Source: Nocardia asteroides (GTDB taxonomy: Bacteria; Actinomycetota; Actinomycetes; Mycobacteriales; Mycobacteriaceae). Taken from it: a DNA stretch of 64,000 nt. The notes under the pieces are model-generated. The model worked only from the letters and a program-made list of their open reading frames with translations. It made no database searches and was not told where the DNA came from. Of the stretch, positions 2,175-50,196 are shown piece by piece. Where the stretch lies: assembly GCF_900637185.1 (NCBI RefSeq), contig NZ_LR134352.1, positions 3,400,001 through 3,464,000 of the forward strand, in the 5' to 3' direction. Made by a program: the position numbers and the translations under genes. Position 1 is the stretch's first letter, and each line of letters begins with the position of its first letter.

Positions 2175-2199
2175 TTACCCGGTCGCGGCACCCGGAAAC
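2175..2199 (-). promoter_or_regulatory. SigF-type promoter for the Rho_N gene
   Basis: Read on the minus strand: GTTT (2199-2196), 15 bases, GGGTAA (2180-2175). It overlaps the stop codon of the metallophosphoesterase gene and sits 45 bases before the Rho_N start. Same layout and spacer as the other SigF-type sites in the window. Confidence 0.6.
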
Positions 2200-2927
2200 A
2201 CCAGGTCCCGCGGCGCGAGATCGTAGACGGCGTACTCCGTGCCGATCACCGGCTGCGCCACATTGCGCACCCGGATCCCGCCCGGGGTGGTGCCGCGTTC
2301 GGTGCCCGCGTGCGCGTGCCCGTGGATCGCCAGGTCGGCGCCGCACGCGTCGATCGCCTCGCCCAGCAGGTAGGACCCGAGGAACGGATAGATCTCGGGT
2401 GGCTCGCCGTGCAGGGTGTCCGACACCGGCGAGTAGTGCGTCAGCGCGACCGTCACGTCGGTGCGCAGTTCGCTCAGCGCCGTCCGCAACCGGTCGGCCA
2501 GCTCGACGGAGTGCTCGGCGAACTCGCGCATCTGCGGTTCGCCGAAGGCGCTCGCGCACTTGCCGGCGAAGCCGCCGCCGAAGCCCTTGGTGCCGGCGAT
2601 GCCCAGGGTCCGGTCGCCGATGGTGAAGGCGACGGCCGAGCCTTCCAGCACGGTGATGCCGTGTTCGGTGAGCAGCTCGGTCATCTTCTCGGCCTGGTCG
2701 CTGTGATAGTCGTGGTTGCCGAGCACGGCGACGACCGGGACGTCCAGCTCGCCGAATTCCGCGGCGACGGTCTTGGCCTCGTCCATGGTGCCGACGCGGG
2801 TGAGGTCACCGGCCAGCAGCAGTACGTCCGCGTGCTCGGCCAGATCGGCGAGCTGCGGGCGCAGCCTGCCCCGGCAGTCGGCGCTCAGATGCACGTCTCC
2901 GACGGCGGCGATCCGCATGGTGGTCAT
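2175..2927 (-). CDS. Calcineurin-like metallophosphoesterase
   Basis: A 250-residue soluble phosphoesterase with all metal-binding blocks in order: GDVHL near residue 10, AGDLTR near 40, GNHDYH near 71, THYSP near 167 and GHAHAG near 210. Such enzymes hold two metal ions and cleave phosphodiesters or phosphomonoesters; the substrate cannot be read from sequence. ATG 2927 overlaps the stop of the upstream nucleotidyltransferase gene as TGATG, a one-base overlap typical of translational coupling, so the two are made together. A second in-frame ATG at 2918 is possible. Confidence 0.85.
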   Translation of the reverse strand: MTTMRIAAVGDVHLSADCRGRLRPQLADLAEHADVLLLAGDLTRVGTMDEAKTVAAEFGELDVPVVAVLGNHDYHSDQAEKMTELLTEHGITVLEGSAVAFTIGDRTLGIAGTKGFGGGFAGKCASAFGEPQMREFAEHSVELADRLRTALSELRTDVTVALTHYSPVSDTLHGEPPEIYPFLGSYLLGEAIDACGADLAIHGHAHAGTERGTTPGGIRVRNVAQPVIGTEYAVYDLAPRDLVFPGAATG

Positions 2928-3748
2928 CACCTCAGCACTTCCGGGGTCGTGGGCGCGCCCGGCCGGTTGACCCGGACGTCGTTGTGCACCCGCAGCGACC
3001 CGACCCGTTCCCGCAGCACCGTTTCCAGCGCCTCCCTGCTCTGTTCGTCGCCGACCTCGCCGGTCAGCACCAGCACCTCGCCGCGCAGGGTCACGTGCAC
3101 GCCCATCGTCGCGGTGCGCGGATCCTCGGCGAACGCGCGGCGCAGATTCGCGACGAGATATTGCGGCGGTTCGTGCGGCGCGGGCACGGCCGCGGCGAGC
3201 GGTTCGTGGATGCCGAGGTCGGCGACCAGGCTCAGGAACGCCCGGGCGTACGGGGATCCGGCGCACTCGCGGCGCACCTGCGCCCAGTCGACCTGCTCGC
3301 GCAGCGCTCTGGCCGCGGCCAGCAGCGCGGTGAGGTCGAGGCGATGCGCGTCGAGCACCATCAGCTTGTCGACCATCAGGTCGGTGCCGGTCAGGACCGG
3401 CGCGACCGCCGGGCCGACGCGCATCACCTCGGCGCGCGCCAGCAGGGCGTCGTCGACGGTGCGGTGGTTGGTGCGGAAGATGATGTCGACGAGGATGTCG
3501 CCGTGGTAGGCCTTGGTCAGCCAGTTCTCCACCGGGTCGGCGGCCCGGAGCCCGGCGCCCACCAGTGCCGTCCTGGCCGCCGCCGCGTCCTCCGGGCGCA
3601 CGAAGACGTCGACGTCGTGATCGGACTCGGGCCCGCCGCGGGCCCAGACCGCGCAACCACCACCCACCGCGAACCGGACCCCCTTGTCGTGCAAGGTGTT
3701 GACCACCAACGTCAGGGTGTGCAGCAGCTGGTCGATGCCGGCGCTCAT
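2927..3748 (-). CDS. Nucleotidyltransferase-fold protein with C-terminal BON domain
   Basis: A 273-residue protein of two parts. Residues 15-110 resemble a minimal nucleotidyltransferase fold: VRFAVGGGCAVWARGG, then the acidic metal-binding motif SDHDVDVFV, then DILVDIIF. Residues about 200-265 match a BON domain (GEVLVLTGEVGDEQSREALE...VHNDVRV), usually linked to membrane or lipid binding. The combination is unusual. It might modify a protein or small molecule, or be a MenT/AbiEii-like enzyme; I see no cognate antitoxin. ATG 3748 has the ribosome site AAAGGTGG. It is first in a coupled operon with the metallophosphoesterase, behind a SigF-type promoter. Confidence 0.75.
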   Translation of the reverse strand: MSAGIDQLLHTLTLVVNTLHDKGVRFAVGGGCAVWARGGPESDHDVDVFVRPEDAAAARTALVGAGLRAADPVENWLTKAYHGDILVDIIFRTNHRTVDDALLARAEVMRVGPAVAPVLTGTDLMVDKLMVLDAHRLDLTALLAAARALREQVDWAQVRRECAGSPYARAFLSLVADLGIHEPLAAAVPAPHEPPQYLVANLRRAFAEDPRTATMGVHVTLRGEVLVLTGEVGDEQSREALETVLRERVGSLRVHNDVRVNRPGAPTTPEVLR

Positions 3749-3810
3749 CGCGGACCACCTTTCGCCGAAGCGTGCGATCACGTGGGCGCCGAAGCGGCCA
3801 CATGATCGCA

Positions 3811-3835
3811 CTACCCCCGCCCGAAACGCTCAATC
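3811..3835 (-). promoter_or_regulatory. SigF-type promoter for the nucleotidyltransferase-phosphoesterase operon
   Basis: Minus strand: GATT (3835-3832), 15 bases, GGGTAG (3816-3811), 62 bases before ATG 3748. The -35 box has A where other copies have T; spacing and -10 are exact. Confidence 0.55.
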
Positions 3836-3843
3836 ACGGGCGG

Positions 3844-4266: not shown

Positions 4267-4366
4267 CTGCTTTCCGGCGGATCGGCGAGGACTCTGGTAT
4301 TCCGGCCATAGCCGTTCCGCGCGGTTTCAACCAGGCGCGTGGCCGTCACCGCGGCGGTGAATAATC

Positions 4367-5062
4367 ATGGGCATGACCGAACAGAACGACACGTCGACCG
4401 CCGGGCGTGCGCTGGTCGGGCAGGTGATCGGTATGGGCGACACCCTCGCGGTCGGCCGGTTCCGCTACCTGTTCGCGACGCACCGCTGGGAATGGTCCGA
4501 CGAAGTCGCGGCCATGCACGGCTATCCGCCCGGCACGGTGCCGACCACCGCCATGTTGCTGTCGCACAAGCATCCCGACGACCGGGACCGGGTCGCCGAG
4601 GTGCTCACCTCGATGGACCACGGCGCCACCTTCTCCAGCCATCACCGGATCATCGACACCGCGGGCCGCCTGCGTGACGTGCTCGTCGTCTCCGAGCACA
4701 TCACGGACGCGGACGGGACGGTGATCGGCACCGAGGGCTACTACATCGACGTGTCCGGGACCGCCGCCGAATACCGGCGCGAGGCCATCGACGCCGCCTT
4801 GCCCACCCTGCTCGAGGCGCGGGTGGTGATCGAGCAGGCCAAGGGCGCGCTGATGGTCGCCTACGCGATCGACGCCGACCAGGCGTTCCGGGTGCTGCGC
4901 TGGCGCTCCCAGGAGACCAACGTCAAACTACGGACGATCGCCGAACGGGTGGTGGGCGCCCTGCCCACGGTCGGCGGCGCCGACGTGGGCCTGCGCACCC
5001 GCCTCGACCACGTCCTGCTCACCGCGCACGAGGACCCGCCCGCCGATCACGGCACCGGATAG
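4367..5062 (+). CDS. PAS-ANTAR RNA-binding antiterminator-type regulator
   Basis: A 231-residue two-domain signalling protein. Residues 25-135 form a PAS/PAC fold (FRYLFATHRWEWSDEVAAMHGYPPGT, then HKHPDDRDRVAEVL, then a PAC tail). Residues 145-205 are an ANTAR domain with the typical EARVVIEQAKGALMVAYAIDADQAFRVLRWRSQETNVKLRTIA helices, which in the family bind paired RNA hairpins to prevent termination. PAS probably senses a ligand or redox state. ATG 4367 or 4373 could be the start; both follow a GGTG-containing site. The 3' end overlaps the convergent FMN-reductase gene by 16 bases. No target hairpin pair was identified nearby. Confidence 0.85.
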   Translation: MGMTEQNDTSTAGRALVGQVIGMGDTLAVGRFRYLFATHRWEWSDEVAAMHGYPPGTVPTTAMLLSHKHPDDRDRVAEVLTSMDHGATFSSHHRIIDTAGRLRDVLVVSEHITDADGTVIGTEGYYIDVSGTAAEYRREAIDAALPTLLEARVVIEQAKGALMVAYAIDADQAFRVLRWRSQETNVKLRTIAERVVGALPTVGGADVGLRTRLDHVLLTAHEDPPADHGTG

Positions 5063-7375: not shown

Positions 7376-9157
7376 TCAGCGCAGGAATTCCTGTGCCTTG
7401 GCGCGGACACCCTGGCGGACCAGGTGCCAGGCCTCCGGGTCGCCGTGCAGCAGCGCCTGGGCGGTGTGGCCGAGCTGATCACGGGTGACGTGGGGGGGAA
7501 TGGGCGGAATACCGGGGTCGCAGTGCACATCGAGCAGGACCGGCCCGTCCGCGCGCAGGGCCGCGTCCCAGGCCGGGCCGAGCCGGGCGGGGTCGAGCAC
7601 GGTCTCGCCGCCGAGGCCGGCCTCGCGCGCGACCGCGGCGTAGGAGATATCCGGAAGATCTTGCGAGGCAGGAACTTTCGGTGATCCGGACATAGCCCGC
7701 AGTTCCCAGGTGACCTGGTTGAGGTCGTTGTTGTGGAACACGCACACCACCAGCCGCCGGTCGGCCCAGCGGGCCGCGTACCGGCGGATGGTGAGCAGTT
7801 CGGCGAGCCCGTTCATCTGCATGGCGCCGTCGCCGACCAGCGCCACCACCGGCCGGTCCGGGTGCGCGAACTTCGCGCCGATCGCGTACGGCACCGCCGA
7901 CCCCATCGAGGCCAGCGTGCCCGACAGCGAGGCCCGCATGCCGTGACGCAGCCGCAGACAGCGCGCGTACCAGGTGGTGGAGGAGCCCGAATCGGCGGTC
8001 ACGATCGCGTTGTCGGGCAGTCGATCGGACAGTTCCCACACCACCCGCAGCGGGTTGACCGGGTCGGCGTCGAGCATCGCCTGCCGGCCCAGCGTGTCCC
8101 ACCAGGCCGCGACGTTCGTCTCGATCTGGTCGCGCCAGCTGGGATCACGCCGGTCCGAGACGAGGGTGGTGAGCGCGGCCACCGTGGTCGCCGCGTCGCC
8201 GATCAGGTTGACCTCGGTGGGGTAGCGCATGCCGATCCGGGATCCGTCGACGTCGATCTGGATCGCCCTGGCCCGGCCCGGTTCCGGCAGGAACTGCGCG
8301 TACGGGAAGTTCGAGCCGACGATCAGCAGCACGTCGCAGTCGCGCATCAGCTCGTAGCTCGGCCGGGTCCCGAGCAGCCCGATCGAGCCGGTCACGAACG
8401 GCAGATCGTCGGGCAGCACGTCCTTGCCGAGCAGTGCTTTGGCCACGCCCGCGCCGAGCCGGTCGGCCAGCGCGACGATCTCGGCGGCGGCACCGCGCGC
8501 GCCCTGCCCGATCAGGATGGCTGGCCGGTAGGTGGCGTCGAGGATCGCCGCGGCCCGCGCGATCTCCTCGTCGGGCGGGAGCAGCGAGGAGGTGCTGTCG
8601 GTGCCGGGCGGACTCGGCACCGCCTGGCCCGGCACCGCGGCGGGCGGATGGGACTGTTCGTGTTGCAGGTCCGCGGGCACGATGACCACGGTCGGCGCCC
8701 GCCGCGCCAGCGCCGTGCGGATCGCGCGATCCACGGCGGCGGGCAGCTGTTCGGCGACGTCGACCTCCACCAGGAAGGCGGAGGCGACGTCTTTGAACAG
8801 GCTCTGCAGGTCCACCTCCTGCTGATAGTCCAGCCCGCGCGCAGACCGGGCCGTCTGCCCGACCAGGGCCAGCACCGGCACATGATCGAGTTTCGCGTCG
8901 TACAGACCGTTGAGCAGGTGGATAGCGCCCGGTCCCGACGTGGCGGCGCACACCCCGATCCGGTCGCTGAACTTCGCGTAGCCGGTGGCGGCGAACGCGG
9001 CCATCTCCTCGTGCCTGGTCTGGACGAAGACCGGCGCGTCCGCCCGGCCGAACGCCGCGATCAGGCCGCCGATCCCGTCGCCGGGATAACCGAAGACCTG
9101 GTCCACGCCCCAATCCCGCAGGCGCGCCAGGATCTGGTCGCCGATCTCGGTACTCAT
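7376..9157 (-). CDS. Pyruvate oxidase-like TPP-dependent enzyme
   Basis: A 593-residue ThDP enzyme with the three usual domains. The N-terminal Pyr domain has FGYPGDGIGGLI and the catalytic glutamate in QTRHEEMAAFAATGYAK (near residue 54); the middle domain contains LIGQGARGAAAEIVALADRLGA; the C-terminal PP domain has the ThDP-Mg motif VGDGAMQMNGLAELLTI...NND. This pattern fits PoxB/pyruvate oxidase-like enzymes better than acetolactate synthase, because the small-subunit partner is absent. It probably decarboxylates pyruvate or a related 2-oxo acid, passing electrons to quinone or making acetate. ATG 9157 has the ribosome site TTGGGAGG. It heads a four-gene operon. Confidence 0.8.
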   Translation of the reverse strand: MSTEIGDQILARLRDWGVDQVFGYPGDGIGGLIAAFGRADAPVFVQTRHEEMAAFAATGYAKFSDRIGVCAATSGPGAIHLLNGLYDAKLDHVPVLALVGQTARSARGLDYQQEVDLQSLFKDVASAFLVEVDVAEQLPAAVDRAIRTALARRAPTVVIVPADLQHEQSHPPAAVPGQAVPSPPGTDSTSSLLPPDEEIARAAAILDATYRPAILIGQGARGAAAEIVALADRLGAGVAKALLGKDVLPDDLPFVTGSIGLLGTRPSYELMRDCDVLLIVGSNFPYAQFLPEPGRARAIQIDVDGSRIGMRYPTEVNLIGDAATTVAALTTLVSDRRDPSWRDQIETNVAAWWDTLGRQAMLDADPVNPLRVVWELSDRLPDNAIVTADSGSSTTWYARCLRLRHGMRASLSGTLASMGSAVPYAIGAKFAHPDRPVVALVGDGAMQMNGLAELLTIRRYAARWADRRLVVCVFHNNDLNQVTWELRAMSGSPKVPASQDLPDISYAAVAREAGLGGETVLDPARLGPAWDAALRADGPVLLDVHCDPGIPPIPPHVTRDQLGHTAQALLHGDPEAWHLVRQGVRAKAQEFLR

Positions 9158-9352
9158 CGGTGGGCCTCCCAATCTTCGGGTCCGCGGTGCGAGCCGGGCG
9201 CGCCTGCCGCGACGACGCCGTTGGCGTCGCGGCCGTGCGCCTCGGCTCGCGCCCGCGGTGTGCCGGTGTCGACGCCGGCTTCCGAAACGAGTGGAAACAT
9301 CGGCGCCGTATGCATCCGGTCGGCCGATCCCCACATCCCCGTGATGCCCGCC

Positions 9353-9380
9353 CCCGCGGCCCCGAAACGGGGGCCGCGGG
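9353..9380 (-). terminator. Hairpin terminator after katE
   Basis: A perfect 11-bp stem (CCCGCGGCCCC, 9353-9363, pairing with 9370-9380) with loop GAAACG, 12 bases after the katE stop. It separates katE from the TPP-enzyme operon; the remaining 9158-9352 shows no gene, and I could not pick out a convincing promoter in it. Confidence 0.7.
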
Positions 9381-9392: not shown

Positions 9393-11549
9393 TCAGGACG
9401 CCGCCTCGATCCGCTCCCAGGCACGGTGCTGTGCCAGATCGGTGAGCACGCCCGTGGTGGCCGCGTCCGCATCGGCCACCGTCACACCGGGGGCCTCCGC
9501 GTCGACGCCGGTGCGCTGCAGGACCGACGCCGCGGTGCCGACCGCCGCGATCGCCTTGCCGTGCCGCCACATCTCCTCGACCAGCAGATCGACCCGGGGG
9601 TCGATCGGGCCGCCCAGCAGGATCAGGCCGTCGAATTCGACCGAGCGCATGGTGGCGAAGGTGCGGTCCACCATCAGGTCCGCGTCGTCCTCGACGACAC
9701 CGCCGCGCGCGGCGACCAGCAGCGGCCGCACCCGGGCCTCGGTGAGCGCCGCGATCACCTCGCCGACCGCCGCGGCGGTGGCGGTGTCGTCGATCAGCAC
9801 GGCCACGGTCCGGCCGTCGACGGGGAAGGTTCCCTGCCGCTGCGACAGCGCGGGACTCGGCGCGAGATCGACCCGGTCGGCGTTCGGCGCGGGCGCGGTG
9901 AGCCCGAGCTGTTCGGCGACGTAGTCGGCCAGCGGCTCGTCGACATTGGCCAGCATCTGCAGGCCGCGTTCCCGGATCGTGGTGTCGGTGCACTTGCCGA
10001 GTTCGAAGGCGAACGCGTCGGCCAGATGCTGCCGCTCACCGGGGGTGAGGCTGCGGTAGAACATGCGCGGCTGCGAGTAGTGATCGGCGAAGGACACCGC
10101 CTCGGGGCTGTTCGCCGAGGTCCGCAGCTTGGCGGTGGGCGGCGGGATCGGCGTCGGCGACTCGACATAGGCCTCGCCGGCCATGCTCGCCGCGAAGGGA
10201 CAGCCGCCCGCGGTCGAATTCGGTTTGTAGGGACCGATTCCCGGATGCACGGCGGTCTGGTGCATGCCGTCGCGGAACATGTCGTTCACCGCGGTGTGCG
10301 GTGTATTGATCGGCAGCTGGGCGAAATTGGGGCCGCCGAGCCTGCTGATCTGGGTGTCGAGGTAGGAGAACAACCGGCCCTGCAACAGCGGATCGTCGGT
10401 GACCTCGATGCCGGGCACCAGGTGACTCGGGCAGAACGCGACCTGTTCGGTCTCGGCGAAGAAGTTCACCGGATTCGCGGTGAGCCGCAGCGTGCCGATC
10501 ACCTGGACCGGCGCGATCTCCTCGGGCACGATCTTGGTCGGATCCAGCAGATCGATGCCCTCGAACAGATGCTCGGGGGTGTCCGGGAAGACCTGGATGC
10601 CCAGATCCCATTCCGGCGCGATGCCCGCCTCGATCGTGTCGGCCAGGTCCCGGCGATGGAAGTCGGGGTCGAAGCCCGCGGTGAGCTGGGTTTCCTCCCA
10701 CAGCATCGAATGCACGCCGAGCCGGGGCTTCCAGTGGAACTTCACCAGCGAGGTGGTCCCGTCGGCGGCGACCAGGCGGAAGGTGTGGATGCCGAAGCCC
10801 TCCATCATCCGCAGCGAGCGCGGCAACGCCCGGTCCGACATGCTCCAGAAGGTGTGCGCGGTCGCCTCGGTGTGCAGGGTGACGAAGTCCCAGAACGTGT
10901 CGTGGGCCGACTGCGCCTGCGGAATCTCCCTGTCCTGCTGCGGTTTTCCGGCGTGGATGATGTCGGGGAACTTCACCGCCTCCTGGATGAAGAAGACCGG
11001 GATGTTGTTGCCCACCAGGTCGTAGACGCCCTCGTCGGTGTAGAACTTCACCGCGAAGCCGCGGGTGTCGCGGACGGTGTCGGCCGAACCGCGCGAGCCG
11101 AGCACGGTGGAGAAGCGCACGAACACCGGCGTCCTGGCGTCGGCGGCGAGGAACCGGGCCCGGGTCAGCGAGGCGGCGGCGCCGGTGGCGACGAAGACGC
11201 CGTGCGCGCCCGCGCCGCGCGCGTGCACGACCCGCTCCGGAATGCGCTCGTGGTCGAAGTGGGTGATCTTCTCGCGCAGGTGGATGTCCTGCAGCAGCAC
11301 CGGCCCGCGCGGGCCCGCCTTCAGCGCGTGGTCGGTGTCGGCGACACCGAGTCCCTGCGCGGTGGTCAGGGCGCCGCCCTGCTGGGCGCGCAGACTCGCG
11401 TCACCGGGGATCGGCGCTCCGGTCGGCCCGCGCAGCGCCGGCCCCTCCTGATCGGGGCCGGGACCCGCCTGTTCGCAGGGCCGGTCCGGGTTCTCGTCGG
11501 GCGGTTCGGACGGGCGGGTGAATTCCGCGGGCACCTCGTTGTCGGTCAT
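9393..11549 (-). CDS. katE: Large-subunit (HPII-type) catalase
   Basis: A 718-residue monofunctional heme catalase. The core holds the distal histidine in RVVHARGAGAHG (near residue 86), the distal asparagine in LVGNNIPVFF, FSTVLGSRGSADT, and the proximal heme-ligand tyrosine in GRLFSYLDTQ. Residues about 560-718 add the DJ-1/PfpI-like C-terminal domain that marks large-subunit catalases (VAVLIDDTATAAAVGEVI, LILLGGPIDPRVD). It destroys hydrogen peroxide in the cytoplasm. ATG 11549 follows GAAGGGA. The SDR gene ends 22 bases upstream, so both are expected from the SigF-type promoter at 12453-12477. Confidence 0.93.
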   Translation of the reverse strand: MTDNEVPAEFTRPSEPPDENPDRPCEQAGPGPDQEGPALRGPTGAPIPGDASLRAQQGGALTTAQGLGVADTDHALKAGPRGPVLLQDIHLREKITHFDHERIPERVVHARGAGAHGVFVATGAAASLTRARFLAADARTPVFVRFSTVLGSRGSADTVRDTRGFAVKFYTDEGVYDLVGNNIPVFFIQEAVKFPDIIHAGKPQQDREIPQAQSAHDTFWDFVTLHTEATAHTFWSMSDRALPRSLRMMEGFGIHTFRLVAADGTTSLVKFHWKPRLGVHSMLWEETQLTAGFDPDFHRRDLADTIEAGIAPEWDLGIQVFPDTPEHLFEGIDLLDPTKIVPEEIAPVQVIGTLRLTANPVNFFAETEQVAFCPSHLVPGIEVTDDPLLQGRLFSYLDTQISRLGGPNFAQLPINTPHTAVNDMFRDGMHQTAVHPGIGPYKPNSTAGGCPFAASMAGEAYVESPTPIPPPTAKLRTSANSPEAVSFADHYSQPRMFYRSLTPGERQHLADAFAFELGKCTDTTIRERGLQMLANVDEPLADYVAEQLGLTAPAPNADRVDLAPSPALSQRQGTFPVDGRTVAVLIDDTATAAAVGEVIAALTEARVRPLLVAARGGVVEDDADLMVDRTFATMRSVEFDGLILLGGPIDPRVDLLVEEMWRHGKAIAAVGTAASVLQRTGVDAEAPGVTVADADAATTGVLTDLAQHRAWERIEAAS

Positions 11550-11571: not shown

Positions 11572-12411
11572 TCAGAGGATGGGTTTGCCGCCGGTGACCG
11601 CCAGCCGGGCACCGGAGATGTAGCTGCCGTCGTCGGCCGCGAGCAGCACGTAGGCGGCCGCGAGTTCGGCGGGCTGACCGGCCCGGCCCAGCGGCACGTT
11701 GTCACCGAAATCGGCCACCTTCTCCGGTGGCATGGTGGACGGGATCAGCGGTGTCCAGATCGGGCCGGGCGCGACGCTGTTCACCCGGATGCCCTTCTCA
11801 CCCAGCAGCTGGGCCAGGCTGGCCGACAGATTCGCGATGGCGGCCTTGGTCGCCGCGTACGGCGCCAGCGTCGGATTGGGCATATCGGAATTCACCGACG
11901 AACTGCCGATGATCGAGGACCCGGGTCGCATATGCGGCAGCGCCGCCTTGACGAGCCGGAAATAGGCACCGACATTCACCGCGAAGGTGTAATCGAATTC
12001 CTCGTCGCTGATCTCGTCCAGGTCGGTGTGCGTCATCTGATAAGCGGCATTGCTCACCAGCACGTCGATGGTGCCGAATTCCTCGACCGCCCGCGCCACC
12101 AGCGCCCGGCAGTGCGCCGGGTCGGACAGATCGCCGGGTGCCAGGACCGCCCGGCGCCCGGCCTCGGTCACCCAGCGGGCCACCTCCTGAGCGTCCTCGT
12201 CCTCGTCGAGATAGGAGATCAGCACGTCGGCGCCCTCGCGGGCGAACGCGATCGCCACCGCGCGGCCGATCCCGCTGTCGGCGCCGGTGACGATCGCCGC
12301 CTTACCGGTCAATTTCCCCGAGCCGCGGTAGCTGTGTTCCCCGCAATCGGGGACCGGTGACATCTGTGCCTGGATACCCGGCACTTTCTGCTGTTGTTCG
12401 GGAAATCCCAT
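11572..12411 (-). CDS. SDR family oxidoreductase (stress-type, YhxC/YghA-like)
   Basis: A 279-residue short-chain dehydrogenase with an N-terminal extension (PEQQQKVPGIQAQMSPVPDC) typical of the general-stress SDRs of the YhxC/YghA group. NAD(P) motif TGADSGIGRAVA lies near residue 42, NAA at about 124, the catalytic Ser in GSSSVNSD, and YxxxK as YAATKAA near 193. The substrate is unknown. ATG 12411 follows CGGAGGG. It precedes katE by 22 bases; grouping with catalase and the SigF-type promoter upstream indicate a role in oxidative or osmotic stress. Confidence 0.88.
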   Translation of the reverse strand: MGFPEQQQKVPGIQAQMSPVPDCGEHSYRGSGKLTGKAAIVTGADSGIGRAVAIAFAREGADVLISYLDEDEDAQEVARWVTEAGRRAVLAPGDLSDPAHCRALVARAVEEFGTIDVLVSNAAYQMTHTDLDEISDEEFDYTFAVNVGAYFRLVKAALPHMRPGSSIIGSSSVNSDMPNPTLAPYAATKAAIANLSASLAQLLGEKGIRVNSVAPGPIWTPLIPSTMPPEKVADFGDNVPLGRAGQPAELAAAYVLLAADDGSYISGARLAVTGGKPIL

Positions 12412-12452: not shown

Positions 12453-12477
12453 CTACCGCGTTATCCGTTCGGCAAAC
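12453..12477 (-). promoter_or_regulatory. SigF-type promoter for the SDR-katE operon
   Basis: Minus strand: GTTT (12477-12474), 15 bases, CGGTAG (12458-12453), 42 bases before ATG 12411. One mismatch from GGGTAG in the -10 box. It lies back to back with the plus-strand site at 12481-12505. Confidence 0.5.
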
Positions 12478-12480
12478 ACC

Positions 12481-12505
12481 GATTGGCCACGAGCGGCCGG
12501 GGTAC
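12481..12505 (+). promoter_or_regulatory. SigF-type promoter for the 38-residue membrane protein
   Basis: Plus strand: GATT (12481-12484), 15 bases, GGGTAC (12500-12505). The expected transcription start is only a few bases before ATG 12515, so the message would be almost leaderless, in keeping with the lack of a ribosome site there. Confidence 0.5.
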
Positions 12506-12514: not shown

Positions 12515-12631
12515 ATGGAACTCCTTGCGATCGTCGCTCTGGTCTGTGTCGTCGCGGTGGTGCTGCTGTTCCGCAGGCGCGGCAAGCAACCACCGGATCA
12601 ACCGGAGTCGACCGGCAACGACCCGAAGTGA
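12515..12631 (+). CDS. Small single-pass membrane protein (38 residues)
   Basis: ATG 12515 opens a 38-codon ORF: a hydrophobic segment (residues 2-18, ELLAIVALVCVVAVVLL), then FRRRGK and a polar tail (PPDQPESTGNDPK). The positive-inside rule puts the C-terminus in the cytoplasm. The frame is open upstream to 12410, but that part overlaps the divergent SDR start and has no membrane character. A SigF-type promoter ends 9 bases before the ATG. It lies just before the anti-sigma gene, so it could form part of that unit. No family recognised. Confidence 0.5.
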   Translation: MELLAIVALVCVVAVVLLFRRRGKQPPDQPESTGNDPK

Positions 12632-12684: not shown

Positions 12685-13110
12685 GTGCAGGACGAGCAAC
12701 GCGAAATCGTGCCGCGATCACGGACCGTCGGATTTCAGATCCCGGCGGAACTGGACCAGTTGACCATGGCGCACGCGCTCGCCGAAACCGTCCTGCTCGT
12801 CGAGGGATTCGCGCTCGACGAGGTCACCGATCTGCTGCTGGCGCTGGACGAGGTGGTGACCGCCCTGGTGCTGATCGCGACCCCGGATTCGCTGATCGAC
12901 TGCGCCTTCACCGGCCGGGACGGCGCGCTCGGCGCCCGCGTCAGCACGCTGGCCGCCACGCCGGACGCCATCGACGAGGACGCCTTCGGCTGGCATGTCG
13001 TGGCCACCCTGACCGACGCGCTGAGCACCCGCTACGGCGACTTCGACCCCTTCCGCGGCGGCTACCCGACGACCGTCGAATTCGGCTGGATCCGGCGCGC
13101 CGCTTCCTGA
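12685..13110 (+). CDS. Anti-sigma factor (RsbW/UsfX-like, GHKL fold)
   Basis: A 141-residue protein with the layout of RsbW-like anti-sigma factors: N-terminal helix with DQLTMAHALAETVL, then the ATP-binding N-box region LALDEVVTALVLIA, a short strand pair, and FGWHVVATLTDALSTRYG at the end. The usual N-box asparagine seems replaced (DEVVTA), so kinase activity is uncertain. GTG 12685 follows GAGGAGG. The sigma gene starts 84 bases downstream, the same order as usfX-sigF in mycobacteria; holding that sigma factor inactive is the expected role. No anti-anti-sigma (STAS) gene is in the window. Confidence 0.75.
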   Translation: MQDEQREIVPRSRTVGFQIPAELDQLTMAHALAETVLLVEGFALDEVTDLLLALDEVVTALVLIATPDSLIDCAFTGRDGALGARVSTLAATPDAIDEDAFGWHVVATLTDALSTRYGDFDPFRGGYPTTVEFGWIRRAAS

Positions 13111-13194
13111 GAATCCGCGAAGCCCACACATAGCCGAGTCGGCGCTGGGTACCCGAAGGACATCCGACAACGCCCGGAAGCGAGGCACGTGGCG

Positions 13195-14028
13195 ATGACA
13201 GGGGAAACAGCAACAGCAGATCATTCGACCGCACGGCGGTCCCAATCCCGCGGTGACAGCTACGACAACATCGAACCGTGGTTCGAGAAGTTGCGGGCAC
13301 TCCCGCCGGACGATCCACATCACGAGACCATCCGGGCCGAGGTGATCGGGCTGTGCCTACCGCTGGCCGATCACATCGCCCGCAAGTTCACCGGTCGCGG
13401 CGAGCAGTTCGACGATCTGGAGCAGACGGCCCGGGTCGGGCTCGTCCTGGCCGTCGACCGATACGACGTGACCCGGGGCTATTCGTTCCTGTCCTTCGCG
13501 ATCCCCACCATCATGGGCGAGGTGCGCAGGCATTTCCGCGACCACACCTGGGCCGTGCACGTCCCGCGCCGGCTCAAGGAACTCCAGTTGCGGATCGGAC
13601 CGGCCACCGAGGAACTGTCGCAGCGGCTGGGCCGCCTGCCCAACGCGCAGGAACTGGCGACCGAACTGGACGTGGACCTGCTCGAGGTCACCCGCACGCT
13701 GGTGGCGAGCAACGGGTATCAGACCAACTCGATCGACGGGATCACCGAGGACGATCGTGACAACGCCAGCCAGCCGATCACCGACACGCTCGGGGCCGAC
13801 GAGCCGTGCTACGAGCTCACCGAGGACGCCGACGCGGTGCGGCCGCTGATCGCCGCGCTGCCGAGCACGGACCGGCGGGTTCTGATCATGCGGTTCTACG
13901 AGAACATGACGCAGAGCCAGATCGCCCGGCGGCTCGGGGTCTCCCAGATGCAGATCTCCCGGATCCTGGCGCGCACCCTGAGCTCCCTGCGCGAACAGGC
14001 ACTGGGCGAGGAGCCGGCAGTGCAGTGA
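13195..14028 (+). CDS. sigF: Stress sigma factor, SigF/SigB family
   Basis: A 277-residue group 3 sigma factor. Region 2 carries RGEQFDDLEQTARVGLVLAVDRYD and GYSFLSFAIPTIMGEVRRHFRD; region 3 is PRRLKELQLRIGPATEELSQRLGR; region 4 ends in MTQSQIARRLGVSQMQISRIL, the -35-binding helix-turn-helix. This matches the SigB/SigF/SigG subfamily. GTG 13189 or ATG 13195 can start it; the ribosome site GAAGCGAGG lies before both. It is predicted to read the G(T/A)TT-N15-GGGTAn promoters found across the window. Its own upstream region has GGGTAC at 13147-13152 but no matching -35, so autoregulation is unproven. Confidence 0.9.
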   Translation: MTGETATADHSTARRSQSRGDSYDNIEPWFEKLRALPPDDPHHETIRAEVIGLCLPLADHIARKFTGRGEQFDDLEQTARVGLVLAVDRYDVTRGYSFLSFAIPTIMGEVRRHFRDHTWAVHVPRRLKELQLRIGPATEELSQRLGRLPNAQELATELDVDLLEVTRTLVASNGYQTNSIDGITEDDRDNASQPITDTLGADEPCYELTEDADAVRPLIAALPSTDRRVLIMRFYENMTQSQIARRLGVSQMQISRILARTLSSLREQALGEEPAVQ

Positions 14029-15996: not shown

Positions 15997-16113
15997 GAAT
16001 ACTCCTTGCGCTCCGCCGATATGGTCTTGTCCGGCGTATGCCCGTACCGCGGCGGCGCAATCAATTCGGCGTAGGGTGAGTCTGGTGCGGAATCCGGGGA
16101 ATACTCCCTGCGC
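15997..16113. repeat. Pair of direct repeats GAATACTCCyTGCGC
   Basis: Two 15-base copies differing at one position (15997-16011 and 16099-16113), 102 bases apart, in the divergent region between the methyltransferase and the glutamate-cysteine-ligase-like gene. They flank the SigF-type promoter at 16038-16062. Possible activator sites; no protein is assigned. Confidence 0.4.
16038..16062 (-). promoter_or_regulatory. SigF-like promoter for the methyltransferase-CDGSH operon
   Basis: Minus strand: GATT (16062-16059), 15 bases, GGGCAT (16043-16038), 80 bases before ATG 15958. The -10 has C for T at its fourth base, so it is weaker than the GGGTA sites, but the 15-base spacer is kept. Confidence 0.4.
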
Positions 16114-17248: not shown

Positions 17249-17551
17249 TCAGTGCCCCCGCGGGTCGGTCAGCTCGCGGCCTTCCTTCGCCTTGACCCGG
17301 CGATGCTCGGCGAACACGATCAGCACACCGCCGAGCAGCGACACCGCGGCCAGTGTCGCGGCGATCGCCGCCCAGCCGCCGAAGCCGTAGCCCGCGGCGG
17401 TCAGGGTGAGGCCGACCAGGATGAGCCCGAGGGCGATGAGGATGAGTCCCGGCCAGTTGCGGGTGTCCTCGATGGACTCGCCCGCGTGGGCACGGGTGGT
17501 GCGCGCGTCGTCGGGGAAACGATCGTCGCGGCGGGGATCGGGAGCGTTCAT
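17249..17551 (-). CDS. usfY: UsfY-family membrane protein of the SigF regulon
   Basis: A 100-residue protein. Residues 17-36 (ARTTRAHAGESIEDTRNWPG) and the end of the second membrane segment (FAEHRRVK) match mycobacterial UsfY, whose gene neighbours sigF. Two membrane helices are visible (about 36-57, LILIALGLILVGLTLTAAGYG, and 60-80). Its function is unknown in any organism I can recall. ATG 17551 has the ribosome site AGGAAAGG. It is the third gene behind the SigF-type promoter at 19131-19155 (epimerase, lipoprotein, usfY), which fits the family's known SigF control. Confidence 0.75.
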   Translation of the reverse strand: MNAPDPRRDDRFPDDARTTRAHAGESIEDTRNWPGLILIALGLILVGLTLTAAGYGFGGWAAIAATLAAVSLLGGVLIVFAEHRRVKAKEGRELTDPRGH

Positions 17552-18017: not shown

Positions 18018-19085
18018 TTACACCCGCAGTTCGGCCTCTTCGCGGCTGCCGACGCCGGTGGTGAATTCGTGGATCCGCCATGGCCCACCGGCGTGGGGGT
18101 CCAGTGGCGGGGTGCCCGCGCCGGCGCCGGTGCGCAGTCCGTCCAGCATCTCGCGCAGCGCCGCCGCGGAGCTGTAGCGCGGAATCCAGCCCAGGTCCTC
18201 GCGGGCGCGGGCGGTGTCCATCAGGGGCAGGTTCATCATCGCGTCGAACAGGTCGGGGGTCGCGGGCACGAGGTGGCTGTGCCACGCCGCGGACAGCGCG
18301 GTGCGGACCAGCCGGGGCGGGACGGTCACCGTGCGCGCGCCCATGACGGTGCGGAGCACGCCCGGGTCGACGACCGGTTCGGCGGCCAGGTTGAAGGGCC
18401 CGCGGGCCTGCGAGGTGACCGCGAGGGCATAGGCGGCGCCCACATCACGGCTGTGCACCGCCTGGAATCGCAGCCCGCGGGGGATGGGCAGGATCGGCGG
18501 CAGACCCGGCCGCACGAGCCGGTTCGGCATGAGCGGGCCGAGGAACAGCCTGCGCTGCTGACCCGCCGACTCACGCCGGAAGCTGAACGCCGGACGCATC
18601 CGGACGACCCGCCGTTCCGGTTCCTCTACCTCGAAGCGATCGAGCAGCCTTTCGACATAAGCCTTTTCGCGCATGTAGCCCGCGGCGGGCCAGCCGTCGG
18701 TGGGCCAGCTCTCGGGCACCATCCGGTCGTCGGCACACGGCGCGTAGGCCCCCACCGAGGAGGCGTAGACGAACGCGGGCACCTGGGCGGCCGACACCGC
18801 CCGCAGCACCCGTTCGGTGCCGCCGACATTGTTGCGCCAGGTGGTCAGCGGTTGCCGGGCCGGCTGGAACAGCCATGCCAGGTGGACGACCACATCGGCA
18901 CCGTGGAACCACGTCTCGAGTTCGTCGGTCCTGATGTCGGCCCCCACCCACTGCACGCCGGGCCGCGATTCGGCGGGTACCCGCCGCGCGATCCCCACCA
19001 CGGAATCCACCCGCGAATCCCCCGCGAGCGCCTCCAACAGGCTGGTGCCGATGTTTCCGGTCGCGCCGACGACGACTACCCGCAT
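18018..19085 (-). CDS. NAD-dependent epimerase/dehydratase (extended SDR)
   Basis: A 355-residue extended SDR. VVVVGATGNIGTSLLEAL (residues 3-20) is the Rossmann loop; DVVVHLAWLF, TERVLRAVSAA, VYASSVGAY and YMREKAYVE (YxxxK, near 156) complete the signature. The C-terminal part (DLFDAMMNLPLMDTARAREDLGW) resembles sugar-nucleotide or 3-beta-HSD-like epimerases; the substrate is unknown. ATG 19085 follows GAGGAGCAGAC. It heads the epimerase-lipoprotein-usfY operon behind a near-perfect SigF-type promoter, so it is probably a general stress gene. Confidence 0.82.
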   Translation of the reverse strand: MRVVVVGATGNIGTSLLEALAGDSRVDSVVGIARRVPAESRPGVQWVGADIRTDELETWFHGADVVVHLAWLFQPARQPLTTWRNNVGGTERVLRAVSAAQVPAFVYASSVGAYAPCADDRMVPESWPTDGWPAAGYMREKAYVERLLDRFEVEEPERRVVRMRPAFSFRRESAGQQRRLFLGPLMPNRLVRPGLPPILPIPRGLRFQAVHSRDVGAAYALAVTSQARGPFNLAAEPVVDPGVLRTVMGARTVTVPPRLVRTALSAAWHSHLVPATPDLFDAMMNLPLMDTARAREDLGWIPRYSSAAALREMLDGLRTGAGAGTPPLDPHAGGPWRIHEFTTGVGSREEAELRV

Positions 19086-19130: not shown

Positions 19131-19155
19131 CTACCCGGCCGCCACCCGCCGAAAC
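19131..19155 (-). promoter_or_regulatory. SigF-type promoter for epimerase-lipoprotein-usfY
   Basis: Minus strand: GTTT (19155-19152), 15 bases, GGGTAG (19136-19131), 46 bases before ATG 19085. The -35 box lies in an inverted repeat (CCGAAACGG 19149-19157 and CCGTTTCGG 19164-19172) that could bind another regulator. Confidence 0.7.
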
Positions 19156-19473: not shown

Positions 19474-19498
19474 CTACCCGGGTCCGGCGAGGCCAAAC
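19474..19498 (-). promoter_or_regulatory. SigF-type promoter for csbD
   Basis: Minus strand: GTTT (19498-19495), 15 bases, GGGTAG (19479-19474), 73 bases before ATG 19401. This is an identical box pair to the epimerase promoter; a CsbD gene behind it is the expected target of a SigB/SigF factor. Confidence 0.75.
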
Positions 19499-24382: not shown

Positions 24383-24407
24383 GTGCCCCACCCCGGCAAG
24401 GTCAAAC
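24383..24407 (-). promoter_or_regulatory. SigF-like promoter for the 76/136-residue gene pair
   Basis: Minus strand: GTTT (24407-24404), 15 bases, GGGCAC (24388-24383), 111 bases before ATG 24271 and just after the FAD dehydrogenase stop. The -10 has C for T; kept because its paralogue gene at 50245 also has a site of this type. Confidence 0.4.
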
Positions 24408-27238: not shown

Positions 27239-27286
27239 GTGCACGACCGCGACCGAGCGCTGCGCCGCTGATCGGTGCCGATCGGC

Positions 27287-27311
27287 GATTCGGCACCGAT
27301 CGAGCGGGTAC
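27287..27311 (+). promoter_or_regulatory. SigF-type promoter for the SRPBCC gene
   Basis: Plus strand: GATT (27287-27290), 15 bases, GGGTAC (27306-27311); the same boxes as at 12481-12505. It stands 98 bases before ATG 27409. Confidence 0.55.
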
Positions 27312-27408: not shown

Positions 27409-27867
27409 ATGGTCCGGGTGACTCACAGCGTCCCCGCCCCGGCGGGCGAGGTGTTCGCCGTGCTCGCCGACGGGTGGTCCTACGCGGGCTGGGTGGTCGG
27501 TGCCTCGCACATTCGTGGCGTCGACGACGGCTGGCCCGCGGTGGGGGCCCGGATCCACCACAGCGTCGGCCCCTGGCCGCTGACCATCCAGGACGTCACC
27601 AAGGTCACCGCCGTCGCCCCGCCGCACCGCTTGGAACTCGACGCCCGCCTCTGGCCGTTCGGCGCCGCCGTCATCGATCTGGAGGTGCGGGCCACCGGGC
27701 CCGCCTCGTGTGAGGTGGTGATGGGCGAACGCGCCGTGCGCGGTCCCGGCAAGCTGCTCCCGCACGCGGTGCAGGCGGCGCTGCTCACGCCCCGCAACCG
27801 GGAATCGCTGAGCCGGCTCGCCGATCTGGCGGTGGGCCGCAAGCACGGCGGGGCACCCCAGGGCTGA
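27409..27867 (+). CDS. SRPBCC-family (START-like) protein
   Basis: A 152-residue polyketide-cyclase/dehydrase-like protein: VTHSVPAPAGEVFAVLADGWSYAGWVVGASHIRGVDDGWPAVGARIHH is the usual START-like opening. Such proteins bind hydrophobic ligands. ATG 27409 lies 8 bases after GGAGG, better than the upstream in-frame ATG/GTG at 27352. A SigF-type promoter precedes it; the LysE-type exporter follows 34 bases later. Confidence 0.8.
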   Translation: MVRVTHSVPAPAGEVFAVLADGWSYAGWVVGASHIRGVDDGWPAVGARIHHSVGPWPLTIQDVTKVTAVAPPHRLELDARLWPFGAAVIDLEVRATGPASCEVVMGERAVRGPGKLLPHAVQAALLTPRNRESLSRLADLAVGRKHGGAPQG

Positions 27868-46901: not shown

Positions 46902-46934
46902 CGCGTTCAGCTCGGTGACCAGTGGGAGTTCCCT

Positions 46935-48074: not shown

Positions 48075-48083
48075 TCAGGAGGA

Positions 48084-48587
48084 TCAGGATTGCTCGCGCG
48101 GCGGGTTCGGTTCGCGCCTGCGCCGGCGCAGCGGGCCGATCACCCACACACTGCTGAACAGGAGCGCGAACAGCGCGCCCGCGACGATGGCGGAGGGCAA
48201 CCCGGAGACCGTGTCGAAGATCAGCACGGTCACCCCGGTCAACGCCACGCCGAGCAGGATGATGCCGATCAGCGCGTAATGGTGGGTCGCGGTGACGAGA
48301 TCGGCCAGCTGGTGCCTGCGGAACAACAGGCGGTGGGTGGCGACCGGTGCCACCAGCAGGACCGTCGCCGCGACGGAGGCGACGACGGTCCCCAGATACA
48401 CCACCCGCATCGAGGGCCCGAGCATCTCGAACCGCGCCTGGAACGGCAGGGTCAGCAGGAACCCGGTGAGCAGTTGCACGCCGGTCTGCACGACGCGCAG
48501 TTCCTGGAGCAGTCCGGACCAGTTCCGGTCCAGCCGCTGGGTCTCGTTCTCACCGCGTACCCGCTGGTCCCATGCCGCGTCGTCCAT
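48084..48587 (-). CDS. DUF6328-like four-helix membrane protein
   Basis: A 167-residue protein with a polar N-terminus (RVRGENETQRLDRNWSGLLQELRVVQTGVQLL) and four membrane helices (about residues 37-50, 62-80, 101-122, 130-148), then a basic tail RRRRREPNPPREQS. The NETQRLDRNWxxLLQELRVxQTGxQ block is typical of DUF6328 proteins of actinomycetes; function unknown. ATG 48587 has no strong ribosome site. A SigF-like promoter lies 75 bases upstream. Confidence 0.72.
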   Translation of the reverse strand: MDDAAWDQRVRGENETQRLDRNWSGLLQELRVVQTGVQLLTGFLLTLPFQARFEMLGPSMRVVYLGTVVASVAATVLLVAPVATHRLLFRRHQLADLVTATHHYALIGIILLGVALTGVTVLIFDTVSGLPSAIVAGALFALLFSSVWVIGPLRRRRREPNPPREQS

Positions 48588-48661
48588 GTCAGGCCTCGCG
48601 GCGGGTTGCTGCCCGGTCGCTTGCCGTCGTCATCGTCGGCTCCTTCCGCTGCACAGGGGAC

Positions 48662-48686
48662 ATGCCCCGTTCCGTGCGGCGGAAAC
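48662..48686 (-). promoter_or_regulatory. SigF-like promoter for the DUF6328 gene
   Basis: Minus strand: GTTT (48686-48683), 15 bases, GGGCAT (48667-48662). One mismatch in the -10. In the 48588-48909 gap, which otherwise holds only the divergent site at 48838-48862. Confidence 0.4.
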
Positions 48687-48837
48687 GTGCCGACAGTTCG
48701 CCGGCATCGCTGCCTCACCCAGGTCCGTGACCGGTTCCCACGGTAGGACGGTCGCCGAGGAGGACGAACTGCCGGGCCGGTCTGTGCGCCGAACAGCGGG
48801 CGCGGCTGCGCGAGCGCGACATCTCCCCACCGTGCGC

Positions 48838-48862
48838 GATTCAGGCCGGAGCCGCCGGGTAA
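48838..48862 (+). promoter_or_regulatory. SigF-type promoter for the zinc-ribbon gene
   Basis: Plus strand: GATT (48838-48841), 15 bases, GGGTAA (48857-48862), 47 bases before GTG 48910. Likely drives the zinc-ribbon, iron-permease-like and topoisomerase genes together. Confidence 0.55.
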
Positions 48863-48909
48863 CCGCGAGGTGTAACCGAAGTCGGATCCATCGACGAGAG
48901 GTGATGATC

Positions 48910-49143
48910 GTGACTGTCTGCGATACCTGTGGCAACGACTATGCCCGCGCCTTCACCGTGAGCCGGGACGGCCAGAGCTGGACCTTCGACAGCATCGAAT
49001 GCGCCGCCACGACGCTGGCGCCCAGCTGCGCGCACTGTGGGTGCCGTGTGCTCGGCCACGGCGTGGAGACCGAGGGCACCGTGTACTGCTGCGCCAGCTG
49101 CGCCCGTCATTCCGGCCACGACGCACTGGTCGATCACGCCTGA
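48910..49143 (+). CDS. Cysteine-rich zinc-ribbon / metallothionein-like protein
   Basis: A 77-residue protein with eight to nine cysteines: CDTCGNDY at the start, a central EC, then CAHCGCRV and YCCASCARHSGH. The last part (CxxCxC...YCCxxCAxxH) strongly resembles the metal-binding fold of cyanobacterial SmtA metallothionein, so zinc binding is expected. GTG 48910 is chosen because GAGAGG lies 8 bases before it; ATG 48904 would be too close to that site. First gene of a three-gene stress unit. Confidence 0.75.
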   Translation: MTVCDTCGNDYARAFTVSRDGQSWTFDSIECAATTLAPSCAHCGCRVLGHGVETEGTVYCCASCARHSGHDALVDHA

Positions 49144-49151
49144 GGGCCGGC

Positions 49152-49529
49152 ATGCGAGTCCACCGCCTGGCCACCGCCGTCCCGGATGCCGCCACGCACT
49201 GGGCGGGCACCCGCTGGAGCTGGATTCTCGTACTGGTCCTGGCGATGGCCGCGGTGGTGATCGGTGTCGTGACGAGCTTCCCGCTCTGGTGGCAGACCAC
49301 CGTCTACACCAGCGCCGGGCTGATCAGCGTCGTCATGCTGTTCCTGCTGCAGCACACCACCAATAGGGCCAATCACGCGGTGCTGATCAAACTCGACGAA
49401 CTCGTCCGCGCGACCACCGGCGCCCGCGCGGACTTTCTCGACCTCGAGGACCGGCAGGTCCACGAACAGGAAGCACTGCACGATCGATTGATCGCCGACC
49501 CGAGCACCGCCGTGCCCGAGGAGCAATAG
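49152..49529 (+). CDS. Low-affinity iron permease family membrane protein (second copy)
   Basis: A 125-residue protein with two membrane helices (about 22-44, WSWILVLVLAMAAVVIGVVTSFPLW, and 47-67, TTVYTSAGLISVVMLFLLQHT) and the family helix TNRANHAVLIKLDELVRATTGARADFLDLEDRQ, nearly identical in layout to the protein at 3844-4266. It lies 8 bases after the zinc-ribbon gene, and its TAG stop overlaps the next GTG by one base, so the three genes are one unit. Confidence 0.75.
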   Translation: MRVHRLATAVPDAATHWAGTRWSWILVLVLAMAAVVIGVVTSFPLWWQTTVYTSAGLISVVMLFLLQHTTNRANHAVLIKLDELVRATTGARADFLDLEDRQVHEQEALHDRLIADPSTAVPEEQ

Positions 49530-50173
49530 TGCGCCTGCGCCGCAGCGTGGTGTCCGGGCCGGGAATCCGCCGCCGGGCGCGTGGTCGCGGGTTCTCCTAC
49601 ACCGGCACCCGCGGCGTCGCGACCCTGCTGCGCACCCACGTGCGGGTGACGGGCGAGGAACTGTGGTTCGACTACCGGGCCAAGGGCGGCGCCCGGCGAC
49701 GCGTCCGGATCGGCGACGAACTGCTCGCGGCCGCGGTCCGCGGCCTGCTGCGCAGCCACGCGACCTCGCGACGTCTGCTGGTCTACCGCAGGGGCGGCGA
49801 GTACCGGGAGCTGCACGCCGCCGATATCAACGCCCGCTTCCAGGAGCTCGCCGACTGCGAGTGCAGCGCCAAGGACCTGCGCACCTGGCAGGCCACCGTG
49901 CCGGCCGCCGAGGGGTTCGCGCAGCGCGACCCGCCGAGCTCACGCCGCGCGGCGGCAGCCGCCGGACGCGAGGTGGCGGCCGAGGTCGCCGCGGCCCTGG
50001 GCAACACCCCGGCTGTCGCCCGCGGCTCCTACATCGACCCGCGCGTGATCGAGGCGTTCGCCGACGGCGAGACGGTGGCCAGGGCGGTGGCGCGGGCCGC
50101 GCGGGCAGGCTCCGACGAGGAACGCAGGCAGCTCGTCGACCGCGCGGTCATCCGGTTGCTGCGGCGCCGGTGA
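49529..50173 (+). CDS. Internally deleted DNA topoisomerase IB
   Basis: A 214-residue protein against about 330 in bacterial topoisomerase IB. The start MRLRRSVVSGPGIRRRARGRGFSY and the second half (ATLLRTHVRVTGEELWFDYRAKGGARRRV, KDLRTWQATVPAAE, LGNTPAVARGSYIDPRVIE) are both normal, including the catalytic Tyr in SYIDP, the Arg in LRTW and the Lys of AKGG. Some 110 residues in between, including the FRIG(S/G)EEYA segment with the first catalytic Arg, are missing in frame after GFSYTG. The enzyme is probably inactive or altered. It may be a decaying gene, although its frame is intact. Confidence 0.8.
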   Translation: MRLRRSVVSGPGIRRRARGRGFSYTGTRGVATLLRTHVRVTGEELWFDYRAKGGARRRVRIGDELLAAAVRGLLRSHATSRRLLVYRRGGEYRELHAADINARFQELADCECSAKDLRTWQATVPAAEGFAQRDPPSSRRAAAAAGREVAAEVAAALGNTPAVARGSYIDPRVIEAFADGETVARAVARAARAGSDEERRQLVDRAVIRLLRRR

Positions 50174-50196
50174 TTGACGGCGGCGGTCCCGGGTAG
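50172..50196 (+). promoter_or_regulatory. SigF-type promoter for the small DKDYD gene
   Basis: Plus strand: GATT (50172-50175), 15 bases, GGGTAG (50191-50196), 48 bases before GTG 50245. It begins over the topoisomerase stop codon. Confidence 0.65.

Follow-up and report, generated by a model that had tools for sequence, protein, structure and literature searches.

A 64,000-nucleotide (nt) stretch of the Nocardia asteroides genome (NZ_LR134352.1, positions 3,400,001-3,464,000, referred to below as the window; the 6.98-Mb genome forms a single contig) contains eight copies of a two-box element, G[AT]TT-N15-GGGTA, here termed a perfect or strict site, and these stand in front of genes that include an operon for a sigma factor of the SigB/SigF/SigG family. 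The comparisons described below make it very probable that the sites are SigB/SigF-type promoters, and that the window represents the densest part of a stress regulon at one sigF-type operon. The sites had been proposed in a first-pass annotation made from the DNA letters, and all eight are present, with plus-strand starts that were exact and minus-strand coordinates that were one base off. Its estimate that such a pattern should occur by chance well under once in the window was borne out by 100 shuffles (0.12 expected, maximum 2), as was its statement that the sites precede genes: the distance from perfect site to next gene is 43-181 nt in all eight cases, and a called start lies within 300 nt of each (genes were called with a home-made program that misses short ones, such as 48904-49143). 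Seven of the eight are intergenic, and the eighth overlaps the end of an upstream gene. When spacers of 10 to 20 bases were scanned in the window, the two boxes were found together only at 15, and a spacer of 21 gave one match; the -35 box is GATT in five of the eight sites, and the GGTT form with a 15-base spacer is absent from the window. A relaxed scan returned 14 matches in the window, 12 of them both intergenic and before a gene, and 42 in 300 kb of flanking DNA, of which 19 were intergenic and 11 before a gene.

Across the genome the perfect pattern occurs 35 times (16 forward, 19 reverse), against six matches to a reversed-pattern control that is crude in that base order is not kept. 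Eight of the 35 fall within 48,020 bases, the window amounting to 0.9% of the genome, and in 200,000 random placements of 35 sites that concentration was reached in none (0). The flanks contain no perfect site over 140 kb to the left and four over 160 kb to the right. The genome scan that the first-pass annotation had suggested, performed here as a pattern scan, thus demonstrated a real excess and at the same time placed 27 of the 35 sites beyond the window, so that the window set is at most the dense core of a wider regulon. Of these outside sites, 22 lie in DNA that was examined (five others do not), and 19 of the 22 are intergenic, 15 have a called start no more than 300 nt away and 14 combine the two properties. 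That a GC-rich genome simply yields such strings, from which the annotator selected, might be argued from the commonness of the single boxes and from the 58 genome-wide matches to a GGGCA variant (control 8); set against the shuffles, the reversed control, the placement simulation and the conservation upstream of homologues, this explanation keeps practically no probability, and chance is refuted for the eight perfect sites taken together, the near-match at 16039 being outside that conclusion.

Subsequent analyses addressed the character of the sites, a site being scored as intergenic if fewer than 12 of its 24 bases lie in a called gene. At named Nocardia sigF loci (80 loci kept of 198; the kept relatives of the window sigma are all Nocardia, and own-genome records may be missing from this set), 105 non-redundant sites not close to a locus end were scored. 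Of these, 95 proved intergenic, in DNA of which about 80% is called coding (a share that covers loci and window), and 79 of the 105 are intergenic with a called start no more than 300 nt away. An equal frequency inside coding regions, which the first-pass annotation regarded as evidence against its proposal, is therefore not what the sigF loci, as distinct from the whole genome, display. If the first G of a site is counted as 0, a pyrimidine-purine step is found at positions 33/34, with a purine at 34 in all eight window sites and in 79% of a set of 89, and transcription could begin at that step. ATG or GTG occupies positions 32-34 at 67 of 203 non-redundant sites (nucleotidyltransferase sites excluded), against about six per control position; leaderless or upstream start codons were rejected as the cause, the called gene beginning exactly there in five cases and the triplet being in frame with the next gene in 19 of the 67, and the excess looks more like an initiator preference. 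It is highly improbable that the sites are instead bound by some other DNA-binding protein, or form a structural element: one of them (site 6) does lie within a perfect inverted repeat, but the elements are directional, keep a fixed spacing between two boxes that correspond to the published SigB/SigF consensus, are placed before gene starts and carry initiator-like bases at a fixed distance.

The sites are conserved before homologous genes. Homologues were collected from the 80 sigF loci and 20 further regions at a threshold of 45% identity across 60% of the length, and a site was counted within 300 nt. For the first genes behind the eight perfect sites, 27 of 58 homologues carry a strict site; for genes that have neither a site nor a near-match nor an operon link, the figure is 3 of 72. 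Genes behind near-matches or in likely operons, which enter neither sum, have strict sites in 42 of 193 cases together, among them UsfY (16/27), the sigma factor (16/81), catalase (5/13), the thiamine-pyrophosphate (TPP) enzyme (2/2), DUF6328 (1/12), a short-chain dehydrogenase (SDR; 0/10) and a methyltransferase (0/14). In larger samples, each comprising the best 30 loci with the own one included, a strict site precedes the nucleotidyltransferase-BON gene at 15, the DUF6328 gene at 9 and the epimerase gene at 4; the underlying searches matched 64, 59 and 78 of 78 genomes, respectively. When the survey was widened to 60 of the 64 genomes matched by nucleotidyltransferase-BON (four weak or partial matches being left out), 38 of the 60 orthologues, the own one included, were found to have a strict site, and in 33 of the 38 it lies exactly 10 nt before the aligned start while the spacer letters have diverged. 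Such sites are nominally more frequent before sigF-linked than unlinked orthologues (31/41 versus 7/19; Fisher p 0.008); the notion that sigF linkage predicts the promoter did not hold up once kinship was considered, as independent pairs on the gene tree gave four for, one against and six ties, on a tree that is the gene's own rather than that of the species and with 'unlinked' G004 and some others lying near a contig edge, where their state is uncertain.

Examination of other Nocardia further established that such sites gather near sigF-type genes. The 80 sigF loci hold 111 sites in 1.56 Mb, with one match to the reversed control (raw counts, some loci overlapping), and 30 Nocardia genomes hold 1,520 in about 230 Mb (control 301), which correspond to 71 and 6.6 per Mb, a difference of about tenfold; the richest loci have ten (L078) and eight (L108). 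In all loci examined, 303 non-redundant sites were found, 261 of them with a called gene behind, and these genes form recurrent families (26 are single), among them anti-sigma factor (43), nucleotidyltransferase-BON (38), UsfY-like (17), CsbD-like (17, by eye), sigma factor (17), Rho_N-like (11), short CsbD (10), a 76-amino-acid (aa) protein (7), TPP enzyme (7), response regulator (7, by eye), DUF6328 (5) and SDR (5). The sample includes 60 loci chosen for the nucleotidyltransferase gene, which inflates the share of that family; related genomes are not independent samples, and clade densities, which mix loci chosen for sigF with those chosen for the nucleotidyltransferase, do not enter the density comparison. 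Regions of two other genomes, G044 and G001, contain many of the same genes in a changed order, and the comparison as a whole supports the view that many of these genes, with their sites, recur in other arrangements near sigF-type genes of other Nocardia. A special enrichment at topoisomerase neighbourhoods was also considered and rejected: in other genomes of the family, 73 kb of such DNA gave 21 relaxed matches, a count in which overlapping readings enter twice (reversed control 2), against 16 in 115 kb (reversed 0) at comparison Nocardia epimerase loci, an excess of only about twofold.

These observations suggest a mechanism of a familiar form. RNA polymerase carrying a sigma factor of the SigB/SigF/SigG family would read G(A/T)TT as the -35 and GGGTA as the -10 box, 15 bases apart, and would start transcription some 9-11 bases past GGGTA. 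Release of the sigma factor from its anti-sigma factor under stress would be the trigger, by which catalase, CsbD, UsfY and several small proteins of unknown function would be switched on together; the sigF-type operon, encoding anti-sigma and sigma factor, would be self-amplifying because a promoter-type site of its own stands in front of it.

Three sigma factors are candidates for reading the sites. The window sigma passes the TIGR02980 profile (SigB/SigF/SigG) with 281.8 bits against a curated cut-off of 234.35, and is one of three in the genome to do so; on the mycobacterial-type SigF profile, NF005514 (cut-off 372), the other two score 376.1 (a paralogue at 5.23 Mb) and 285.3. The first-pass annotation had placed SigF itself at 13195 and described a local SigF regulon. 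The family assignment stands, as does the clustering of SigF/SigB-type sites round a sigF-type gene; the identification with SigF proper was given up, since the window protein is a paralogue below the SigF cut-off that the 5.23-Mb protein passes, and with three SigB/F/G-type candidates of which the window one falls short, the label of a SigF regulon is not adopted here. In an alignment, the segments expected to contact the boxes differ little between the window sigma and the 5.23-Mb paralogue. A closely related alternative, compatible with promoters of this type and given a probability slightly short of even, therefore holds that the sites are read mainly by the 5.23-Mb SigF orthologue, or by several paralogues jointly, with the sigma encoded beside them not acting as their chief regulator and the clustering reflecting shared inheritance of a block of stress genes. 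The three sigmas, the sole passage of the SigF cut-off by the 5.23-Mb protein and the likeness of the presumed contact segments speak for it, as does Streptomyces coelicolor, where almost all of 24 tested promoters were recognized by at least two of nine SigB homologues (PMC8346170). On the other side, sites concentrate at the sigF-type genes of several clades, including that of the window (in a set partly chosen by another gene), and stand before the sigma operons themselves. Overlapping reading of the sites by paralogous sigmas is likely.

Several findings weigh against the reading of the window as a set of SigB/SigF-type promoters gathered round a sigF-type operon. The window sigma scores 341.8 bits on the SigF profile and so fails it, while the 5.23-Mb paralogue, 1.8 Mb away, has a perfect site of its own 54 nt before its operon. 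The anti-sigma factor of the first-pass annotation, encoded beside the sigma gene and a candidate RsbW/SpoIIAB-type kinase for partner-switching control, matches HATPase_c_2 weakly and below cut-off (E 0.0064; 16.9 bits, cut-off 27.4). The surplus in other Nocardia is uneven, 32 of the 80 sigF loci having no perfect site, and in G038, which of all the other genomes searched has the sigma most similar to that of the window (81%), only two sites lie within 2 kb of the sigma gene. Turnover is high: the epimerase site is found at merely 4 of 30 loci, and the five closest nucleotidyltransferase-BON orthologues (70-81% identical) have none; as the own site moreover is positioned differently, at 63 nt, this lineage seems to have gained it independently. 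Finally, GGTT also serves as a -35 box near other sigF genes (32 cases at spacer 15), and in the own genome GTTT-N16-GGGTA (34; control 4) is at least as common as GTTT-N15-GGGTA (21; control 6). The claim of an exactly 15-base spacer accordingly describes the window cluster, and its extension to a rule for the genome was ruled out.

Near sigF genes, the numbers at spacers 14, 15 and 16 are 14, 64 and 13 for GTTT, 0, 32 and 1 for GATT (with one more at 17), and 2, 32 and 16 for GGTT. The GTTT ratio of N15 to N16 in these neighbourhoods (64:13, non-redundant) differs from that in four whole Nocardia genomes (98:101 raw, background included, with controls of 39 and 27; Fisher p 1.5e-7), and copies of the 16S rRNA gene are presumably among the genome-wide matches; the contrast is a lead only. 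It is conceivable, though doubtful, that the SigF-type paralogues of Nocardia maintain regulon islands with a dialect of their own, G(A/T)TT with the spacer held strictly at 15 bases, as opposed to a dispersed GTTT-N16-GGGTA class. Spacer length would in that case assist paralogous sigmas in separating their targets, as would GATT, which is nearly confined to spacer 15, and the move of a gene into an island would be accompanied by gain of a site. The occurrence of GTTT at spacers 14 and 16 near sigF genes, and the failure of the sigF-linkage test once kinship is considered, argue against such a dialect. Two dispersed sites, G000:C1:1151123 (L004) and 5463171 (L030), have counterparts in other Nocardia genomes in which the spacer letters are almost unchanged, both in G038 and the second also in G044; at L004 no gene start is called within 900 nt on the strand of the site.

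A local regulon of this kind has a clear precedent. In the portion of the Mycobacterium smegmatis study concerned with MSMEG_1758-MSMEG_1804, beside sigF, many genes are described as falling in a sigF mutant and upstream motifs are listed (PMC4694148), so that SigF-type targets with GTTT-N-GGGTA-type motifs are packed next to sigF much as in the window; the arrangement is thus of a known kind and the Nocardia instance is new. The same table contains names echoed in the window (UsfY, RsbW, ChaB, methylase, type I topoisomerase, dehydrogenase), a comparison of names and not of sequences (PMC4694148). In M. smegmatis, unlike the window, dependence was shown by a mutant, and the consensus spacers given there are 14-19 (PMC4694148); the window differs in its uniform 15-base cluster spacers, in the prominence of GATT (5/8) and in a genome with three SigB/F/G-type sigmas. 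The mycobacterial SigF consensus, as quoted in one source, is GGWWT-N16-17-GGGTAY (PMC7693655), which shares its -10 core with the cluster and likewise allows A or T in the -35 box; the agreement with a SigF/SigB consensus that the first-pass annotation had noted consequently extends to the box cores and not to the cluster spacer, which is one or two bases shorter. The SigB homologues of S. coelicolor are likewise several paralogous sigmas with GTTT/GNNT and GGGTA/GGGCA boxes and overlapping recognition, yet they number nine, and the passages describing them do not mention clustering of targets round a sigma gene (PMC8346170). In the distant phylum of Bacillus subtilis, the SigB promoter is given as GTTTAA-N15(+/-2)-GGGTAT, with the same box cores and an apparent optimum of 14 counted after six bases, that is, 16 in the present counting and one above the cluster (PMC9847131). 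Neither the recurrence across Nocardia in shuffled order nor the N15/N16 contrast was met in the literature examined, and a search of open-access titles and abstract openings, a scope that excludes most subscription journals, found no SigF regulon of Nocardia. The site list provides a testable set of candidate stress proteins, several of them of unknown function (nucleotidyltransferase-BON, the 76-aa and 79-aa proteins, DUF6328 and Rho_N-like), most of which are backed by sites before homologues in the genus, as well as a natural case of how paralogous sigmas with similar DNA-reading segments divide promoters.

The four near-matches named in the first-pass annotation exist, all on the minus strand, and a fifth, before the TPP enzyme gene, had been missing from its list (Table 1). 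The -10 core GGGCA, which four of the five share, is found in tested Streptomyces promoters (PMC8346170). The near-matches before the SDR, DUF6328 and TPP enzyme genes have support from relatives, where perfect sites precede members of these families. The near-match at 16039, before the methyltransferase gene, was not upheld as a member of the regulon, its homologues having a strict site in 0 of 14 cases and a relaxed one in 2 of 14.

Table 1. Sites and neighbouring genes in the window (positions counted from its first base)
Feature	Position	Strand	Remarks
Perfect site 1, GTTT-N15-GGGTA	2176-2199	-	before Rho_N-like small-protein gene; overlaps end of metallophosphatase gene
Perfect site 2, GATT-N15-GGGTA	3812-3835	-	before nucleotidyltransferase-BON gene
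Perfect site 3, GATT-N15-GGGTA	12481-12504	+	before anti-sigma and sigma genes
Perfect site 4, GTTT-N15-GGGTA	19132-19155	-	before NAD-dependent epimerase gene
Perfect site 5, GTTT-N15-GGGTA	19475-19498	-	before CsbD gene
Perfect site 6, GATT-N15-GGGTA	27287-27310	+	before SRPBCC gene
Perfect site 7, GATT-N15-GGGTA	48838-48861	+	before gene for 79-aa cysteine-rich protein
Perfect site 8, GATT-N15-GGGTA	50172-50195	+	before gene for 76-aa protein
Near-match GTTT-N15-GGGCA	9345-9368	-	before TPP enzyme gene
Near-match GTTT-N15-CGGTA	12454-12477	-	before SDR and catalase genes
Near-match GATT-N15-GGGCA	16039-16062	-	before methyltransferase gene
Near-match GTTT-N15-GGGCA	24384-24407	-	before two small genes; second has a stretch related to the 50245 product (76-aa family)
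Near-match GTTT-N15-GGGCA	48663-48686	-	before DUF6328 gene
Rho_N-like small protein, 110 aa	1797-2129	-	match below Pfam cut-off; strict site in 5/14 homologues
Metallophosphoesterase	2175-2918	-	likely one operon with nucleotidyltransferase
Nucleotidyltransferase (PF14907) with BON-like domain	2927-3748	-	
TPP enzyme	7376-9157	-	7 non-redundant perfect sites before same family at other Nocardia loci
Long catalase (KatE type)	9393-11549	-	22 nt after SDR gene; relaxed site in 10/13 homologues (strict 5/13)
SDR	11572-12411	-	5 non-redundant perfect sites before family at other Nocardia loci
Putative 38-aa membrane-like open reading frame	12515-12631	+	by eye; ATG at expected transcription start
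Probable anti-sigma factor	12685-13110	+	weak HATPase_c_2; strict site in 9/19 homologues
SigB/SigF/SigG-family sigma, SigF paralogue	13189-14028	+	
UsfY-type protein	17249-17551	-	possibly in operon behind site 4; strict site in 16/27 homologues
NAD-dependent epimerase family	18018-19085	-	strict site at 4/30 orthologue loci (own included)
CsbD-like protein, 57 aa	19228-19401	-	strict site in 8/17 homologues
Polyketide cyclase/lipid transport (SRPBCC) family protein	27409-27867	+	LysE exporter next
DUF6328 protein	48084-48587	-	strict site at 9/30 orthologue loci (own not among these)
79-aa cysteine-rich protein	48904-49143	+	weak metallothionein match; one homologue, without strict site of its own
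76-aa protein, unknown family	50245-50475	+	strict site in 2/2 homologues; 7 sites in wider set, own included

The genes around the sites include the UsfY, CsbD and long KatE-type catalase that the first-pass annotation had listed, the first of these being named after several relatives that are called UsfY in UniRef. The near-match before the SDR and catalase genes and the site before the anti-sigma and sigma genes (12454-12504) are arranged divergently, three bases separating their -35 boxes, and divergent pairs of perfect sites in a similar arrangement are found in other Nocardia at L073, L075 and L108. A PAS-ANTAR gene (4367-5062) also recurs near sigF-type genes; the loci searched contain 22 homologues, none of which has its own site, whether strict or relaxed.

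Around site 6 there is a perfect 12-base inverted repeat with eight bases between its arms (27270-27301), the -35 box of the site falling within the loop and the opening base of the right-hand arm. Upstream is a TetR-type gene (26178-26810); a second control of the SRPBCC-LysE pair by these elements is possible. The 36 bases behind sites 2 and 8 (3776-3811 and 50196-50231) agree at 22 positions, against a mean of 11.1 for 78 pairs (standard deviation 3.1), and may represent a copied promoter. Downstream of the gene for the 79-aa protein are an iron-permease-like gene and then a topoisomerase IB-like gene (49529-50173), whose 214-aa product aligns with several relatives in two separate segments and lacks some 110-120 residues between these, so that it is apparently truncated internally. 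The 76-aa gene of site 8 is followed by a gene for a DNA polymerase A-type protein of about 550 aa (50578-52239).

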